A DNA stretch of 64,000 nt from Tupaia tana (Eukaryota; Chordata; Mammalia; Scandentia; Tupaiidae), in the NCBI GenBank assembly GCA_026018925.1, contig JAKSZU010000009.1:79203090-79267089 (forward strand), read 5' to 3'. Below the pieces are notes generated by a model. That model was not told the origin of the DNA. It worked only from the letters and a program-made list of their open reading frames with translations, and ran no database searches. Positions 1 through 62,674 of this stretch are shown here, in pieces (position 1 is the first letter of the stretch; every line of letters starts with the position of its first letter). The position numbers were made by a program, and so were the translations under genes.

Positions 1-385
1 CACAATTTCTTATATAATCTAATTACTTTCAATAGCAAGTTTGGCTGGTAATTTCAAGGAAAGCAGTTTAAACTTAATAAATCAAAGAAATGTTAAGGAA
101 ATTTGCTTAAAACTTAAAGCCAGAAAACAGGTTAGTATTCTGTTCAAAAAGTAGGTACATGAACCTATTGACAGCTCAAAACAAGACAAAAATCCTTAAA
201 ACTGAAAGACAAAACCTAGAAGAAAATCAGCAATGCTTTAGTCAGAAGTCATAAAATGTTATTTCACCAGTTCAGTCTCATGTACTTTATGTTTTGTTGT
301 GGTTTGATCTTCATGATTAAATTATGGGATATAATATTCAACTCCATACCTGTCCCTATGATTAAGTTGGCCATTGTCTTAAGTG
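1..385. other. No gene seen
   Basis: AT-rich sequence without a convincing open frame, RNA gene or recognised repeat. It may be degraded older repeat. Confidence 0.5.
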
Positions 386-655
386 TTTTTTTTTTTTTTT
401 TTTTGAGAGGTTTTTTGCTATAGGGCGCGTGCGCTCGCCAGACAGACAGAGAGAGACAGAGAGACAGAAAGCGAGAAATCCCCCCCCAGGGGGGATGGCC
501 ACACCACAATCCCTTCTCCTCCATTCTCCTCTCGGGATCTTGGGCACACACGCACACGCGCCCAGCGTGAGTTTAAGCCACTGGGTCCAGGGCTCGAACC
601 GCGGTCAACTACGTGGGAGTCCAGCGACATAGTCATTACGCTAACTGCTTGTCCC
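386..655 (-). mobile_element. tRNA-derived SINE, long form (CYN-like)
   Basis: Read on the minus strand, it starts with GGGACAAGCAGTTAGC, carries an A-box-like and a B-box-like segment (GGTTCGAGCCC), then the body with the C-run/G-run palindrome, a TCTGTCTCTCT tract, the end TATAGCAAAAAACCTCTC and a run of about 19 A. It retains many CpGs, so it is a fairly recent copy. The TSD is weak. Confidence 0.88.
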
Positions 656-671
656 TTAGTTTTTAAACTCT

Positions 672-675
<4 letters not shown>

Positions 676-728
<53 letters not shown>

Positions 729-744
729 ATGTGTGTGTTTGTGT
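676..744. repeat. (CT)n(GT)n compound microsatellite
   Basis: About 38 bases of CT dinucleotides pass directly into GT dinucleotides with a few interruptions. Confidence 0.95.
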
Positions 745-747
745 ATT

Positions 748-1720
748 TAATTTTCCTAGTATAGCACTCCCTTGAGAACTTCTTGGAGATCTGGTCTGGT
801 GCTGATAAATTCTTTCAGGTTTTGTTTATCTGAGAACGTTCTTGTCTTTTCTTCCCATATGAAAGATAACCTTGCTGGGTACAGTATTCTTGGTTGAAAT
901 TTCTTTTCCCTTAACACTTTGAATATATTTTCCCATTCTTTCTTTGCTTGCATTGTTTCCTATGAGAAGTCTGCTGTTATCCTGATGGGATATCTTTTGT
1001 AGGTAATTTGATGTTTTTTCTCTTGCCAATCTTAGTATCTTGTCTTTGAGGTTTTTGTCAATCTGGCTATAATGTGTCTTGGATAAGATCTTCTTGGGTT
1101 GATTCTATTTGAGGTTCTTTGTATTTCTTGGGACGGGATCTTTGAGTGCCTGTCTAGTTTTGGAAAGTTTTCTTCCAGAATTTCATGGAATAGATTATCA
1201 ATACCCTTATGAGTCTCTGTGCCTTCTGGAATAATAATTATATGGATGTTTGGACGTTTGATGGTATCTACTATTTGTCATATATTATTCTCATTTGGAG
1301 GCCATTTTCTCAGTTGTTGTGGTGGATTTTTCTAAGTCAGCAATTTTCTCTTCTACATCTTTGGTTCTATTTTCTGTATGATCTAGTCTGCTTTTAATAC
1401 TTTCAAGGGAGATTTTGCACTTCTTGTATTATAGCGTCATCTCTAAATGGTCCGTTTGATTCTTTTTTAAAGTGCGTAATTCCTCTTTTAGATCTTGCAA
1501 GAATTTTCTCACCCCCTGGAACTCATCAGCTCTTTTCTCCTGCCTCTTCAAAAGTTCATTGTCTCTCTTCTGTTCCATCTCTGTTAGCTTCATCATTATG
1601 AATATTCTAAATTCTTTATGAGACATTTCCGTTACTTCAATTGAACTGTCTGTGTATGAAGAAGAGTTATTCTTTTCCCTTGGAGGAGAATTATTTTCCT
1701 GCTTTCCCATAGTTCTTGTG
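748..1720 (-). pseudogene. L1 ORF1 (minus-strand copy), decayed
   Basis: The minus strand encodes the start of an L1 ORF1 protein near 1710 (M-G-K-Q-E-N-N, then E/K-rich coiled-coil residues). It also encodes its C-terminal domain near 756-1029, containing FQPRILYPARLSFIWEEK and ending EVLKGVLY-stop. The latter matches the equivalent segment of the plus-strand L1 at about 3660-3840. ORF1p is the RNA-binding trimeric chaperone of L1 retrotransposition. The middle is frameshifted, so this copy is dead. Nothing of ORF2 follows on the 3' side; the copy stops at the microsatellite at 744. Confidence 0.85.
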
Positions 1721-1998
1721 TCCCTGCGTAATTTCTAGTCATTTGATGGATGGTGTGTTTCTTCCTACTTCTTGAAGTTCAATCTGAGCGCTCAGAAGTG
1801 TGCAGAAGGAGTTGATCTGGAATCTCTTTGCCGTTCTGTTTTGATCCCTTTGTGCAGCAGATTCAGTGGATATTAAGGAATATGTTAAGCAAAATAGTAT
1901 TTGAATGTTTGGCTATGGTTCCTTTAGATCTGTCTAGAAACACAGAGAATGGAGATTGAGGAGAAGAGTAATGAGATAAAAGAAAAAGAAAACGAAAG

Positions 1999-2034
<36 letters not shown>

Positions 2035-2640
2035 AAAGAAAAACAAAAACAAAGAAACATAGAAAAAGAAGAAAACAATTAAAAAATTATTTTAAAAAAG
2101 CAAAAAATAAAAAACTGCACAGTTCACTTGCATACCAAGTGAAATCACTAGTTCTCCGAAGCAATGGAGTCTTCTTCTGAAGGCCTGCCCCTTGCCTCTC
2201 CACTTGAGTTTGTGGGCTGGAGGCTTAATTGTCAGTAGAAAATCTTCATTTCTCTTTTTTCCCTGAAATTACTAGTTCTACGAAGCCATGGAGTCTTCTT
2301 CTCCTTTGTGCTTTTAACTTTTTAATTTCTTACTCTTCCTCTCACTCAGATCAAGATCCATCCAGGCAGGTCCATCTCTGCTGCCATGTATCTTTGTGCA
2401 CAAGTGCACCACGCAGTTTTCAATTTTTAACTTTTTAAAAATTTTCTGTGATGTATTTTTTTCTCATCCTTTCATTCTAGTTCTTTTCTTCTTTTTCTTT
2501 CTACTTTCACTTGTTTTTCCCACTTCTCTTTTCTTTTTCTTCCTATTGCTGTTTTCTACTCTCTTTTTATTTTTCCTTGTTTTCCCATTTTATTATTGAA
2601 TCCTTATCCACTGCCTAGAGAAGACAAGGTATATAGTAAC
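1721..2640 (-). mobile_element. Probable L1 5' UTR of the minus-strand copy
   Basis: This is a non-coding stretch upstream of the minus-strand ORF1. It contains a purine-rich tract (1975-2100), a direct repeat of about 37 bp with 123-bp spacing (2142-2178 and 2265-2302) and a pyrimidine-rich tract (2475-2600). L1 5' UTRs often carry internal duplications. The boundary with the plus-strand L1 at about 2690 is not sharp. Confidence 0.45.
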
Positions 2641-3841: not shown

Positions 3842-4439
3842 AAGACAGACAGCAATCAGAGAATAAAAACAACTGAGTGTACAGCCAACTTAATGGTAGG
3901 GATGAGTCAGAAAATACCCATAATAACGTTGAGTATAAATGGATTTAATTCTCCAGTCAAGAGACACAGACTGGCAGAAAGGTTTAAAAATACGAAACCC
4001 TCCATCTGCTGCCTACAAGAAACCCATTTCATGGATAAAGACATACATAGACTAAAAGTGAAGGGCTGGAAAAATGTATTCCATGCAAATGGAAACTAAA
4101 AAAGAGCAGGAGTTGCTATACTGATTTCATACAAAATAAGCTTTAAGACAAAAGTGGTAAGAAGAGACAAAGAAGGGTATTATATAGTAGTAAAAGGACT
4201 CATTCACCAGGGAGATATAATGCTTATAAATATCTATGCACCCAACTCAGGAGGACTTAAATATGTAAAGATTGCTAGATCTAAAAGGAGAGATAGACTG
4301 TAACACAACAAATTAACTCCTTTGGACAGGTCAATGAAACAAAAAATAAGCAAAGAGATCCTGGACCTAAACAATACCATAAATCAGATGGACTTGTTAG
4401 ACATTTATAGAACTTTCCACACAGAATATGCATTTATTT

Positions 4440-4688
4440 GAGACTTTTTACTATAGGATGTGTGTGCTTGCCAGAAAGAGAGAGAAAGTCAGAGAGACAG
4501 AAAGCAAGAAATCACCTCCCAGAAGGGATGGCCACGCCACAATCCCTTCTCCTCCATTCTCCTCTCAAGATCTTGGGCACACACGCAAACACACCCAGTG
4601 TGAGTTTAAGCCACCAGGTCCAGGACTCAAACTATGATTGACTACATGGGAGTCCAGCAACATAGCCATTACATCAACTGCTGGTCCC
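4440..4688 (-). mobile_element. tRNA-derived SINE, long form, inside L1 ORF2
   Basis: The minus-strand head is GGGACCAGCAGTTGATG and the body ends with CTATAGTAAAAAGTCTC. It interrupts the L1 endonuclease region between CAGAATATGCATTT and TTTTTCTCTGCCCCAC, which are contiguous in intact L1. Confidence 0.88.
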
Positions 4689-5800
4689 AAAATAAATATT
4701 TTTCTCTGCCCCACATTGTACTTTCTCAAAGATTGACCACATGGTAGGACATGAAACTAGCCTTTACATATTCAAAGGCATATAAACTATATCCAGCATC
4801 TTCTCTGACCATGATGAAATTAAACTTGATATTAATCTCAGGAAAAACCCTAGAAAATACACAAATACATGGAAACTAAATAACCTACTTCATGACTTTA
4901 TGATTACTGAAGAGATCAAGACTGAAATCAAAAGATTCATGGAAACAAATGATAATGAGTATAAAAGTATCCATAATTTATGGGACACTGTAAAAGCAGT
5001 AATATATAAGAGGGAAGTTCATAGCAGTTAGTGCACACAAGGAAAAGATGGAAAGTTAACAAAAGGACAACCTAACGTCATGCCTAAAGAATTGGAAACA
5101 AAACAACAGATATATCCAAAAATCCAGGAGAAAAGAAATAACAAATATTCAAGAGAAATAAATGAAATAGAAAAGTAGCAAACCATACAAAAAATAAATG
5201 AAAGCAAAAGTTGGTTCTTTGAAAAGGTAGATGACATTGACTCACCATTAACTAGACTAATTAATAGGATGAGAGAAAAGAACCAGATACTTCAAATTCA
5301 CAATGAATCAGGCAACATTACAACTGACATAATAAAAATATAAAACATCATTAGAGGATACTATGAGAGACTATATGCCAACAAAGAAGAAAACCTAGAT
5401 GAAATGGACAAATTTCTGGACACATATAATCTATCAATATTGATACAGGATGACATAGAAAGCCTGAATAGACCTATAACCAGCAATGAGATTGAATCAG
5501 CAATAAATAACCTCCCACTAAAGAAAAATCCAGGTCCTGACAGCTTCACTGCTGAATTTTATGAAACTTTTAAAGAAGAGATAACTCCCATTCTATTCAC
5601 ATTGTTTTTAGAGATCCAAAAAGAAGGAACCCTTCCAAATTCATTCTATGAAGCCTCCATTACCCTCATTCTCAAAATAGATAAGGATAGGACAAAAAAG
5701 GAAAACTATAGACCTCTATCTCTGATGAATATAGACGCAAAACTTCTCAACAAGATACTTGCTAACCATATTCAACAGCATATAAAAAAGGTTATTCATT

Positions 5801-6061
5801 GGGACCAGCAGTTAGCATAATGGCTATGTCGCTGGACTCCCATGTAGTCGACCACGGTTTGCGTCCCGGACCCAGTGGCTTAAATTCATGCCGGGCGCAT
5901 GTGCGTGCGTGCCCAAGATCCCGAGAGGAGAATGGAGGAGAAGGGATTGCGGTGTGGCCATCCCCCCGGGGGGTGATTTCTCGCTTTCTGTCTCTCTGTC
6001 TCTGTCTGTCTGGTAAGCGCACGCACCATATAGCAAAAAGAAAACCTCTAAAAAATAAAAA
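5801..6061 (+). mobile_element. tRNA-derived SINE, long form, with TSD
   Basis: The head is GGGACCAGCAGTTAGC, followed by the A and B boxes, the C-run/G-run palindrome at about 5962-5975, and the end ATAGCAAAAAGAAAACC with an A-rich tail. GTTATTCAT is duplicated at 5791-5799 and 6062-6070. It cuts the L1 reverse transcriptase domain. Confidence 0.93.
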
Positions 6062-7370
6062 GTTATTCATAATGACCAGGTAGGCTTTATTCCAGGGATG
6101 CAAGGGTGGTTCAACACACGGAAAACCATAAATGTAATACACCATATTAACAGAAAGAAAAATAAAAACTACATTATCATCTCAATTGATGCAGACAAAG
6201 CATTTGACAAAATAAAACATTCTTTTATGAATAAGATTATTCAGGAAAATTGGCATTGAAGGATCATTTCTCAGCATAATAAAAGCCATCTATGAAAAAC
6301 CTAAAGCTAATATTACGCTGAATTGGGAAAAGTTGAAAGCTTTTCCACAAAAAACTGGTACAAGACAAGGCTGCCCACTTTCACTGGTTCCATTCAATAT
6401 AGTACTGGAAGTCCTAGCCGATGCAATCAGACAAGAGAAGGAAATAACAAGCATTCCAATAGGAAAAGAAGAGCTGAAATTATCTCTTTTTGCAGACAAC
6501 ATGATTGTGTACATAGAAGACCCGACAGTATCTATGAGAAAACTTCTCAAAGTAATAAATGCATACAGTAAAGTGGCAAGATACAAAATTAACTTATAAA
6601 AACCTATAGTATTTCTGTACACAAACAACAAGCAGACAGAGACAGAACTGAAGAAAGTAATCCCATTTACCATAGCCACAGAAGTATAAAATACCTAGAA
6701 ATAAAATTATTGAAGGATGTCAAAGGATGAACACTATAAGGAAAACTATGAAAACCTTAAAAATGTAGTCAAAAAGGACACAAAAAAAGTGGAAGGACAT
6801 CCCATGTTCCTGGATTGGCAGAATTAATATAATCAAAATGGCAATCCTACCAAAATTAATCTACATGTTTATTGTGATCCCAATAAAATGACAAGAGACA
6901 TTCTTCACAGATCTAGAAAAGACAATCATAGAATTTGTCTGGAATCATAAAAGACCCTGCATTGCCAAAGCCATCCCGTGCAAGAAGAGTGGAGTGGGGG
7001 ACATCTCAATTCCTCATGTTAAAATATATTACAAAGCTGTGATAATTAAAACAGCATGCTATTGGCACAAACACAGACATGAGGACTGATGGAACAGAGT
7101 AGAGACCCCAGAAATAAACCCCAAAGCATACAGTCAACTTATCTTTGACAGTGTACCAGTCAATCCAGTGGGAAAAGGAAAACCTCTTTAGCAAATGGTG
7201 CTGGAAAAACTCGGTATCCACCTGCAGAAAGATGAATCTGAACCCCTGTCACCGTTAACAAAAATCAACTCAAAGTGGATCAAAGATCTAAACCTAAGAT
7301 CACAAGCTATAAATCTACTGGAGGAAAACTCTAGGGAAACTCTGGGAGACATTAGGGTAGGCAAAGACTT

Positions 7371-21811: not shown

Positions 21812-22558
21812 TTAAACAATACTCAGAGACTCCTCTTTTTTTGTATCATTTTTGACCTCTTCATTTTCAATTTTTTTTCCAACTTCATTCTTGTTTCCAT
21901 CTCCTCCATCTTTCCCAACTTCTTTTCCACTTTCTTTTTTTTTGTCTTCCTCCAATTTTACATCTTCTTTCTCTTTTTCATCTTCTTCCTCATTTCCTCT
22001 TTCTTTCTCTTTCCCATATATTTCCTCATTTCCATCTTCAACTTCCTTTCCATCATTCTCTTTTTCATCTTCTTTACCTTTTCCGTCTTTCTTCTTTTCA
22101 TCTCCTTTCACTTTTCCATCCTCTTCCTCTTTTCCATCCTTATTTTCTTTTCCATCTCCTTTATATTTTCTGTCTTCCCTCTCATTTTCACTTTCTCTTT
22201 TCTCTTTTCCATCTTCTTCTGCTTTTCCATCTCCCTTCTCTTTTCTGTCTTCTCCTTTTTCATTTTCCTCTTTCCCTTTTCTGTCTTCACTCTTTTTTTC
22301 ATCCCCTTCCTCTTTTCCATCATCTCCTTTCTTCTTTCCATCTTTGTTTTCTTTTCCATCTTCTCCTTTCTTCTTTCCATCTTTGTCTTCTTTTCCATCT
22401 CTGCCTTTATCTTCTTTGTTTTGATCTATATCATCCTCTTTCAGATCTTCTTTTATGTCTTCTTCTTCTGCTGCCACTGATTCTTTCTTTTCTCCTTCCT
22501 CTTTGACATCTTCAATTTTTTCTTCTTTTATCTCAATTTCTTTTACAGTAGCCAGTGC
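21812..22558 (-). CDS. HMGN5: HMGN5 last coding exon (acidic repeat tail)
   Basis: The exon has 747 bases including the stop. It starts ALATVKEIEIKEE after acceptor ACCTAG and becomes an imperfect repeat of E-D-G-K-E/K-G units, very rich in Glu, Asp and Lys. It ends LSIV-stop. The tail is intrinsically disordered and in the family drives chromatin decompaction and euchromatin localisation. The DNA is strongly pyrimidine-rich on the plus strand, which creates long spurious antisense frames. Confidence 0.93.
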   Translation of the reverse strand, partial: ALATVKEIEIKEEKIEDVKEEGEKKESVAAEEEDIKEDLKEDDIDQNKEDKGRDGKEDKDGKKKGEDGKENKDGKKKGDDGKEEGDEKKSEDRKGKEENEKGEDRKEKGDGKAEEDGKEKRESENEREDRKYKGDGKENKDGKEEEDGKVKGDEKKKDGKGKEDEKENDGKEVEDGNEEIYGKEKERGNEEEDEKEKEDVKLEEDKKKESGKEVGKDGGDGNKNEVGKKIENEEVKNDTKKEESLSIV

Positions 22559-32548: not shown

Positions 32549-34430
32549 GTGAAAAGCTATTTGATGATGATGATGTGGATAGTCATGTCTTTTTCTTGAC
32601 TGCTATGCATGGTAATCATGCTGGAAAAAGAAATGTAATACACTGTAAAGATATATGTGATTAGATCTGACGTGGATTTGGGTGGAGTAGAGAGTAGGGT
32701 GCGGTAGTTGGGAGTGGTGGGAGAAGGAGGAGGTGGCAAATCACTTATAAATGTCACTGAAGCAGGATATGAAGCCTACATTTCAGGAGGATGAGAGAGT
32801 GCTGTGGTTTCATGGACTTCTTTATGAATCAAAGTGTGTGAAAGTTGCCATAAAAGATAAGCAAGTGAAATATTTTATATATTACAGTGGTTGGAATAAA
32901 AATTGGGATGAATGGGTCCCAGAAAGCAGAGTACTCAAATACGTGGACACCAATCTGCAGAAGCAGCGAGAACTTCAAAAAGCCAATCAGGAGCAGTATG
33001 CAGAGGGCAAGATGAGAGGGGCTGCACCAGGAAAGAAGACCTCTGGTCTGCAACAGAAAAATGTTAAAGTGAAAACAAAAAAGAACAAACAGAAAACACT
33101 TGGGAATGGAGATTGTGGCAGCACCAGTGAGACACCTCAGCCTCTTCAGGGGAAAAGGGCCCGGGTAGATCCTACTGTTGAAAATGAGGAAACATTCATG
33201 AACAGAGTTGAAGTTAAAGTAAAGATTCCTGAAGAGCTAAAACCATAGCTTGTTGATGACTGGGACTTTATTACCAGACAAAAACAGCTCTTTTATCTTC
33301 CTGCTAAGAAGAATGTGGATTCCATTCTCGAGGATTATGCAAATTATAAGAAATCTCAAGGAAATATTGATAATAAGGAGTATGCTATTAATGAAGTTGT
33401 GGCAGGTATAGAAGAATACTTCAACGTCATGTTGGGCACTCAGCTACTCTACAAGTTTTAAAGACAACAGTATGCTGAGATCCTTGCAGATCACCCTGAT
33501 GCACCTATGTCCCAGGTGTATGGAGCACCTCATCTACTGAGATTATTTGTACGGATTGGTACTATGTTGGCCTATACACCTCTTGATGAGAAGAGCCTTG
33601 CTTTATTACTGAATTATCTCCACGATTTCCTAAAGTACCTGGCAAAGAATTCTGCAACCCAGCGATTAATTATGAAGTGGCTCCCCCCGAGTACCATCGG
33701 AAAGCTGTGTGAGAGGCTCACTCGCTCACCTATGTTTGGATCTCTGTAAACGCATTTTTGTTCTTAGTCCTTCTCTTATACAAACGATGTACTTTGAAGA
33801 TGTTAGTGTACAACAGAATCGATGTTTGTTTCTGTTTGATTTTAAACAGAGCAAATAAAAGGGGTTTGGTTCCTTTTTTCTTTTCTTTCTTTTCATTTCA
33901 AAGTTGCTACCAGTGTATTCAATGATGGACAACAGAGACATGCTGTAGAGTGTTTAATTGCCTAGTTAACAAAGCTGCTTTGAATGCTGGTGGTTCTATT
34001 CCTTTGACACTATGCACTTTTATAATATGTGTTAATGCTATATGACAAAATGCTCTGATTCCTAGTGCCAAAGGTTCTATTCAGTGTATATAACTGAACA
34101 CACTCATCCATTTGTGCTCCTTTTATCTTTTAATGGGGCTTAAAGTAAAGAGCCCATCCTTTGCAAGTCATCCATGCTGTTCCTTAGGCATTATCTTCAC
34201 TCAAACTGTTGAAGAATGGTGGCTTGTTTCATGGATTTGTATTTGTGTCTAATGCATGTTTTAACATGATAGATGTAATGCATTTTGTAGCTACAGTTTT
34301 CTGAAGTCTATCTTTTAGGAATTGTTTTTCAGATCTTCAATAAATTTTTTCTTTAAATTTCGAAAAAAAGATATATGTGATTAAATGTAATATAAAATTA
34401 TAATAATAATAAATAAAATTAAATTAAAAA
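32549..34430 (+). mobile_element. L1 3' end fragment, split by the MORF4L1 retrocopy
   Basis: GATGATGATGTGGATAGT and CATGCTGG-like segments at 32549-32663 resemble the L1 3' UTR. The terminal AATAATAATAAATAAA lies beyond the retrocopy at 34384-34430. Confidence 0.6.
32664..34366 (+). pseudogene. MORF4L1: MORF4L1 (MRG15) processed pseudogene
   Basis: MORF4L1 is a chromodomain subunit of the NuA4 acetyltransferase and Sin3 deacetylase complexes that reads methylated H3K36. This is an intronless copy: 5' UTR (GGAGGAGGTGGCAAATC), start at 32751 (MSLKQDMKPTFQ), chromodomain (YYSGWNKNWDEWVPESRV), linker, MRG domain and a long 3' UTR ending at AATAAATTTTTT plus an A-run. Breaks: Trp to stop at 33246-33248 (KP-stop-LVDDWD), Glu to stop near 33466, and a deletion and insertion at about 33660-33675 that shift the last residues. 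The 17-bp TSD AAAGATATATGTGATTA is at 32647-32663 and 34367-34383. The 165-residue 5' frame encodes the chromodomain, but there is no sign it is used. Confidence 0.95.
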
Positions 34431-60945: not shown

Positions 60946-61016
60946 CTGTGTTACACTGTAAAGAAATTAATTAAACTAAACTCTTCGAAGGTTTAGGATT
61001 TTTTTCAACTTTGTTT
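60946..61016 (+). mobile_element. L2 3' region, left half
   Basis: CACTGTAAAG...CTAAACTCTTCGAAGGTTTAGGATTTTTTTCAAC resembles the L2 text around CTGTAAGCTCCTTGAGGGCAGGGA. It continues beyond the composite element at 62675. Confidence 0.55.
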
Positions 61017-61040
61017 CTTTTAATTTTTTTTATTTTTACA

Positions 61041-61298
61041 TTTAATCATTGCACCTCTTTACTGTTTACAACATGGTTTTGCCCAGCATGAATACAGTGC
61101 ACATTAGTCAAAACAATGATATTACCATATACATTATCATCAACAGACAACTTTTCATTTTTGTGTCTATTAAGTGTGTTGTTTGTTTCCTGAATCCCTC
61201 CCTTCTGCCCTCAATTACTCATTCCCATTACCTCTCCCATACTGTCTCTAGTATCCAAAGTTGCCTTCCCTGCTATTATACCTTCCAGTTCCTTCAGT
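61041..61298 (-). mobile_element. L1 3'-UTR-like tail of the composite element
   Basis: Minus-strand segments GGATACTAGAGACAGTATGG, GTTGATGATAATGTATATGG and TATTCATGCTGGGCAAAACC align in order with the L1 3' UTRs at 8550-8770 and 35235-34940. Confidence 0.82.
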
Positions 61299-61746
61299 TT
61301 TTTTTTTTTTCAATTATCAGCTCATAAAGTTTTTAACAATAGGGAGCATAGATTCTATTCAGGGTTGGATTAAGGGTGGGTCTCGTGCAGTTCCGCAATT
61401 GTAGGTGAATCTCCATGGAATACAGTTTCTGGAAAGCAGAGATGATTATCAGTTGATGCGGCACAGCATCCACCTTGTGATTACCGGGAATGGTGTTGTG
61501 GGGATCTGCAGCGTGAGTCATCCTCAGGTATCTGACTTCCTTAAGAATGGTAGAGTAGTTCTTTTATTTTCCCTGAGGTAATGCAGAGCTGGTAACCATC
61601 ATCTTTTCACTGTCCATAGGCAGAGAAAATCCTCCTATACAATATATTTCTCAATTGGTTTAAGACAGCTAAAGTTTCTTTCTGTTGCTTGTAGTTGTAG
61701 GTTCTTAATCCTAGTTTTCGGCTTCAGTTTGCCGCCTGTGGCCGGC

Positions 61747-62382
61747 GGCCACGTGCAGGTGCAGGCCCGGTGGCCACACGCAGGCCCGGGGGCCACGCTC
61801 AGGCACAGGCGCAGGCCCAGCGGCCACAGGCAGGCCCGGCGGCCACACTCCGGCCCGAAGGCCACGCGCAGGCCCGGCGGCCACGCGCAGACCCGGCGGC
61901 CACCCGCAGGCCCGGGGGCCACGCACAGGCACAGGCGCAGGCCCAGCGTCCATGTGCAGGCCCGGTGGCCACGCGCAGGCGCAGGCCCGGTGGACACGTG
62001 CAGGCGCAGACCCGGCGACCACACTCCGGCCCGAAGGCCACATGCAGGCCCGGCGGCCATGCTCGGGCCCAGCAGCCACGTGCAGGCCTGGGGCCACGCG
62101 CAGGCCCGGCGGCCATGCTCAGGCGCAGGCCCGGCGGCCACTCGCAGGCCCAGAGGCCATGCACTGGCCCGGCGACCACGCTCGGGCCCTGCGGCCACGC
62201 GCAGGCCCGGCGGCCACACTCAGGCCCGGCAGCCACGCACAGGCCCAGGGGCCACACATAGGCCCGGGGGCCACACATAGACCCGGAGGCCACGTGCAGT
62301 CCCGGCGGCCACACGCTGGTCCGGCAACCACGCGCAGGCCCGGCGGCCACGCGCAGGCCCGGTGGCCACACACCAGCCCCGA
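61747..62382. repeat. GC-rich VNTR, 19-bp unit, about 31 copies
   Basis: The unit is GGCCACGCGCAGGCCCGGC. By hand I read about 24 units of 19 bp, four of 25 bp and two of 31 bp (6-bp insertions such as GCGCAG), plus a shortened one. The VNTR is very CpG-rich. Copies differ at a few positions, so the array has been diverging since it expanded. Confidence 0.92.
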
Positions 62383-62662
62383 GCGCGTGAATGTGCGCTG
62401 GATCCAGCGCCATCTCCCGCTCGCCTGCCCGGCCTGAGAAAGGAAGGACAGCGAGCTCGGCCAGTCCACGCTGCCGGCCCGCCTTGGCGCCGAGCGCGGG
62501 ACACACCCAGTGCTGGAGAGGCAGCGGGGGCCAGGTGGTCCGGGCCACGGCACAAGAAGCAGAACCCCGGCCGCAGCATGCGAGGCAGAGCTCCGACTGC
62601 GGCATGCGAGGCAGAGCCCCGGCCGTGCGGACCCTGCTGCACAGGCCCGGCCATGAGGCAGC
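62383..62662 (-). other. GC-rich 5' domain of the composite element
   Basis: Non-repetitive except for a short tandem duplication of GCATGCGAGGCAGAGC with about 26-bp spacing (plus strand 62576-62617). It has the base composition of a CpG-island promoter or mRNA 5' end. The source is not recognised. Confidence 0.6.
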
Positions 62663-62674
62663 TCAATTTTATTT

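Follow-up and report, generated by a model that had tools for sequence, protein, structure and literature searches.

Introduction

The VNTR composites of hominoids are the described systems that come closest to the element reported here. They are described as hominoid-specific, with an Alu-like 5' region in common and with VNTRs that go back to ancestral units of 40 and 39 bp; the same account places the ancestor SVA2 in macaque as well, and gives LAVA an L1-derived end (PMC4432496). A second account also treats SVA and LAVA as hominoid-specific (PMC7353768). Composites of another kind are the L1-RNA chimeric insertions, in which U6, U3, Alu or mRNA sequence is joined with L1, and for which template switching and RNA ligation are the routes named (PMC13174262).

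The window analysed in this study is a stretch of 64,000 nucleotides of Tupaia tana DNA, and the element occupies positions 61017 to 62662 on its minus strand. We hold it, with a probability of about 0.8, to be one copy of a non-autonomous VNTR-composite retrotransposon family that is moved in trans by L1, an analogue of SVA and LAVA made of unrelated parts. Among the open literature matches listed there was no such element outside primates, and an uncurated repeat-database entry for the family may exist.

Layout of the composite element

Read in its own sense, the element begins with a GC-rich stretch of approximately 26-bp repeat units (62543 to 62662), which forms its 5' end and whose start varies among copies; TRF reports this array at 62559 to 62625 with a period of 26 and 2.6 copies. 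A GC-rich core of 169 bp (62374 to 62542), matched in 36 of 40 copies, separates this array from the central VNTR (61746 to 62373), which TRF and unit splitting resolve into about 30 units, mostly of 19 bp with variants of 25 and 31 bp. The unique middle of about 430 bp follows (61311 to 61745), where the window copy lacks a short segment that is present in 35 of 40 copies, and then an internal A-run (61298 to 61310), which has 13 A in the window copy and 6 to 20 A in the 37 of 40 copies that were measurable. The unit closes with an L1-derived 3' end of about 280 bp (61017 to 61298), delimited by profile and alignment, which comprises the last bases or the stop codon of ORF2, the 3' UTR and an A-rich terminus. 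All of these parts lie on the minus strand. GC content in 200-bp windows reaches 0.72 to 0.80 between 61700 and 62599, against 0.25 to 0.45 in most of the flanks.

Re-reading of the sequence bore out the five parts of the original prediction, together with their order, coordinates and strand. Its GC-rich head is indeed GC-rich, but it is not a single part, consisting of the 26-bp array plus the 169-bp core. The 19-bp VNTR is real: TRF scores it at 436 (32.9 copies, 61761 to 62369), whereas the highest score among 60 dinucleotide shuffles of the region is 87. The predicted 12-bp target site duplication (TSD) is also found precisely at the borders of 61017 to 62662, where the 5' copy AAATAAAATTGA (62663 to 62674, minus strand) pairs with the 3' copy AAACAAAGTTGA (61005 to 61016, minus strand) at 10 of 12 positions. 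Taken alone, this TSD is weak, since the longest exact word common to both flanks has 6 bp, and it is the other copies that make the case for target site duplication. The surroundings are presumably an L2, as had been noted earlier, and seem to agree with the L2 consensus.

A young family in the host genome

The host's own genome (2.95 Gb in 1,198 contigs) was searched with the whole unit and with separate parts. The best 40 of 4,138 candidates were scored as places for the whole unit, the best 40 of 2,147 for the tail alone (22 of them new relative to the whole-unit list), and the best 40 of 2,812 for the middle alone (14 outside both other lists). Together these searches give at least 76 distinct matching places (40 + 22 + 14, the last 14 counted by match position), and the idea of a single-copy locus, which would have spoken against a mobile family, is thereby dismissed. 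When the core alone was used, 33 of the best 40 scored among 1,511 candidates were over 5 kb away from any of the 76 places. The candidate numbers, which are unconfirmed counts, suggest hundreds to thousands of family copies.

Forty copies, namely 39 fetched loci and the window copy, were analysed with their flanks. The order of 5' GC array, core, 19/25-bp VNTR, middle, A-run and L1 3' end is constant in 36 of them; a core match is absent in four fetched copies. VNTR length ranges from 77 to 818 bp in the 36 copies having the core. A fuzzy split of the VNTRs of all 40 copies yields intervals mostly of 19 bp (451) and 25 bp (121), and the terminal unit is of the 25-bp type in 39 of 40 copies under very permissive matching (as many as 5 mismatches in 20 positions); under a stricter split the last interval is 25 bp in 23 of 40. 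Multiple copies with the same junctions, variable VNTRs and individual TSDs, as the original prediction had proposed to look for, are thus present in this set.

At non-CpG sites of the middle and tail, the 40 copies diverge from their majority sequence by 0.8 to 4.9%, with 2.8% for the window copy. Because the median is only 2.1%, the family is young. With a neutral substitution rate of 2 to 4.5 x 10^-9 per site per year, the present copies would be roughly 5 to 10 million years old. The ratio of observed to expected CpG in the 400 bp preceding the middle is 0.43 to 0.98 (median, 0.84), and a simple pattern search returned no G-quadruplex motif. A division into two subfamilies was considered and dropped, since most of the differences in motif are peculiar to the window copy: TTTCCTGAA occurs in 35 of 40 copies and GGCAACTGCAGA in 33, while the window's GGCAACTTTGGA occurs in one.

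Hallmarks of retrotransposition

TSDs were assessed by exact words common to the 5' and 3' flanks, with 3' flanks swapped between copies as the control (n = 400). Words of at least 13 bp were found in 16 of 40 copies, one of which (L045) has a word that is nearly all A, versus 0 of 400 controls; the other 24 copies have no exact word of this length. With a threshold of 11 bp, the numbers are 23 of 40 versus 5 of 400. Some 5' ends are confused by nested SINEs. A-rich 3' ends are plain in the copies, and several tail places are truncated at the 5' side.

The usual target of the L1 endonuclease is TT/AAAA. Of the targets at the 16 clear TSDs, 13 have A as their first base, a figure that is partly built in by extending the site leftwards through A, and the two bases preceding the target are T in 6 and 5 cases, so that the TT half is not evident. 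TSDs, A-rich 3' ends and 5' truncation point to insertion by target-primed reverse transcription, with L1 as the probable source of the protein. That the element moved as one RNA, as originally proposed, is supported by the same part order in 36 of 40 copies and by individual TSDs round the whole unit. Unequal exchange can spread GC-rich tandem arrays, and the copies might then stem from a single locus by segmental or satellite-like duplication in place of retrotransposition. However, they are spread over many contigs and show 5' truncations as well as TSDs of their own, and we consider the chance of such a duplication negligible.

Source of the L1 tail and position of the joint

A profile of the middle and tail matched 13 distinct non-composite places in the window and the fetched loci (E of 1e-5 or less). 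All 13 matches begin after the A-run, and four of them immediately follow a match to the C-terminal part of ORF2. A resemblance to L1 upstream of the A-run, noticed by eye, was rejected because the profile matches begin past it. The nearest L1 among the loci analysed, L047, is identical to the tail in 185 of 286 columns and in 50 of the first 60. The beginning of the tail coincides with the ORF2 stop codon of this decayed L1, whereas the open frame of L070 continues for about 11 codons beyond that point. A joint exactly at the stop codon is true for L047 but not for L070, and we therefore place the joint at the end of ORF2.

In seven L1s whose ORF2 frames are open over 1,313 to 1,333 amino acids, the 3' ends are 60 to 62% identical to the tail and carry an extra extension; their scores are 85 to 104, and the highest score among 200 shuffles of one of them is 56. 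The tail donor was not found among the L1s analysed, these seven included. Judged from the alignments, the tail is not derived, at least not recently, from the L1s having open ORF2 frames today, because a family diverged by about 2% would match them far more closely; so the donor would be another or older L1 lineage, or the composite lineage would be much older than its present copies. The L1 3' UTR tail of the original prediction is thus L1-derived as claimed, with the refinement that its joint falls at the end of ORF2 and that its donor is other than today's open-frame L1s. When the best 150 of 123,838 L1 ORF2 candidates were scored, 10 had open frames of 1,312 to 1,333 amino acids, from which we take the host to have some recent, possibly active L1s.

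The 5' parts compared with L1 sequences

GC-rich tandem arrays occur in the L1 5' UTRs of some mammals. This counts for a reading in which the composite is an internally deleted or spliced L1, SpIRE-like or HAL1-like: head, VNTR and middle would be the 5' UTR of some L1 lineage, its ORFs would have been lost, and the remnant would have multiplied. The tail, an L1 3' end from the close of ORF2 whose L1 lineage was not seen full-length, also fits such an origin. Nevertheless, we regard it as unlikely in view of what the L1s themselves carry. At 10 undated ORF1 matches among the loci analysed there was no native head, core or middle, and these parts were matched there only through separate composites. 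Four of the 10 have such a composite with its own tail, either beside ORF1 (L009 and L035) or inside it (L011 and L013); three of these composites (L011, L013 and L035) have a TSD of 15 to 16 bp, and the TSD in L009 is weak. Additionally, 281 bp at the expected 5' UTR of one L1 with an open ORF2 contain no composite part, although this stretch matches no other locus among those analysed and shows no ORF1 start, so it is perhaps not L1. Splicing would not be expected to leave an A-run at the joint either.

The sequence upstream of the tail was read at the 22 further tail places, over about 330 bp for 18 of them and about 800 bp for four. A long piece of the middle precedes the tail in 15 places and only its last bases in six (in L052 they were recognised by eye), while one is cut at the A-run; ORF2 lies directly upstream of the tail in none of the 22. 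One locus, L048, was tried as another head on the same tail and rejected, being a copy cut at the A-run next to an unrelated GC-rich flank. The ORF1 and 5' UTR observations are supportive, if not complete, in arguing against a deleted L1.

Like SpIREs, as far as these are described in PMC5860796, the composite has an L1 3' end and lacks internal L1 sequence. Unlike them, it has an A-run at the joint and no sign that its 5' part is an L1 5' UTR. HAL1, or half-L1, is a non-autonomous element with an L1 3' UTR; the composite shares this part, but no ORF1 was seen in it, the middle having no Pfam match over the cut-off; the one frame of the middle that was examined has 54 codons. The best Pfam candidate for the middle, CLN5 at an E value of 0.12, is below the cut-off. 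No RNA family was reached either (one match, 10.4 bits versus a gathering score of 70). Donors for the head, the VNTR and the middle were looked for without success.

Comparison with hominoid composites and L1-RNA chimeras

With SVA, LAVA, PVA and FVA the family has in common a non-autonomous composite build, a central GC-rich VNTR of variable length, flanking single-copy parts and young copies, and with LAVA, as described in PMC4432496, an L1-derived 3' end. Its units of 19 and 25 bp set it apart, by length alone, from SVA2, whose A and B units are 40 and 39 bp long (PMC4432496). Further differences from hominoid composites are an extra array of 26-bp units at the 5' end and a different middle; an Alu-like 5' region was not found. 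The 3' domain of those composites is of SINE-R, L1ME, PTGR2 or FRAM origin; the tail resembles the L1 3' ends of its own host. An Alu fragment gave no hits in the window and the loci then fetched (about 330 kb), whereas MIR gave seven in the same search, and a hominoid or Alu-bearing primate host is accordingly unlikely. The family thus works like SVA without being a member: VNTR, composite layout and TSDs are present, while the Alu-like region, the unit length and a hominoid host are not. No part was found to be that of SVA or LAVA, and the original prediction of an SVA-like composite of separate invention is supported.

The L1-RNA chimeras described in PMC13174262 also carry foreign RNA in sense to a 3' piece of L1 and are inserted with TSDs. 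That account treats them as individual insertions, whereas the Tupaia tana chimera is a many-copy family (PMC13174262).

Proposed founding and spread of the family

The A-run at the joint suggests that the ancestor most likely arose from a polyadenylated RNA, with the middle as its last part, whose poly(A) became linked to the 3' end of an L1 where ORF2 closes. Template switching, RNA joining, or landing in an L1 with read-through to its end are all possible routes. The last of these can be put more specifically: an older retroposon of head, VNTR, middle and poly(A) may have inserted into an L1 close to where its ORF2 ends, and transcripts running on to the end of that L1 would then have made the composite. 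Such a landing fits the 6 to 20 A found immediately before the L1 sequence in the 37 of 40 copies that were measurable. Nevertheless, the joint context in L047, AGAAACTGA, would make a poor L1 endonuclease site, and no tail-less middle was seen among the copies read, which cover 62 of the 76 places. We therefore put this specific route forward tentatively, as somewhat less probable than its alternatives taken together.

Whichever way the founder of the L1-mobilised composite arose, the GC-rich 5' stretch and core may act as its promoter. A polymerase II-type transcript would then start in the 5' GC stretch, take in the core, VNTR, middle, A-run and L1 3' end, and finish with a poly(A) tail, and L1 proteins, possibly donated by the L1s with open ORF2 frames, would insert it in trans by target-primed reverse transcription, whose hallmarks are those observed in the copies. 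Afterwards the composite would have multiplied as a single unit, with the number of VNTR units changing.

The main interest of the family is its convergent architecture. We see about an even chance that VNTR-composite retrotransposons arose a second time here, outside apes and wholly independently, with every module different from those of SVA and LAVA and with a layout that has converged. If so, the converged layout would consist of a 5' GC tandem stretch, a GC core, a GC VNTR, an RNA-derived middle and an L1 3' end, and a GC-rich VNTR would seem to be functionally favoured when L1 is used in trans, instead of being a chance feature of ape genomes. A separate origin elsewhere would be a natural replicate of the hominoid composites, which could show whether L1 needs the GC VNTR, the 5' array or the L1-derived 3' end to move a composite. 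With young copies that bear TSDs, insertion polymorphism and silencing by the host could also be tested in a further mammal, and the A-run at the end of ORF2 suggests how a foreign poly(A) RNA and an L1 3' end can found a family.

Other repeats and observations in the window and genome

At L009 (about 4340 to 6501) and in the window (about 1 to 2450, minus strand), an L1 ORF1-like frame is followed by sequence like an L1 3' end, with ORF2 absent by eye; these elements are possibly a HAL1-type (half-L1) family. A tRNA-type SINE is very dense, with 282 BLAST matches in about 330 kb (the window and loci L001 to L069, some of which overlap), and fragments of AfroSINE, ERE, CAN and colugo-type SINEs gave no hits in the window and loci (about 330 kb). 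Broken frames at 32751 to 33749 of the window (plus strand) resemble MORF4L1/MRG15 and are, we presume, a processed pseudogene. The window also contains a pyrimidine-rich tandem array (21930 to 22417) that is imperfect and in which several periods, from 18 to 111 bp, are nested. Elsewhere in the assembly, cytochrome b is matched at C1198:14180-14737, and contig C1198 is probably mitochondrial; 20 other cytochrome b matches, one of which scores slightly above that of C1198, are probably nuclear copies.
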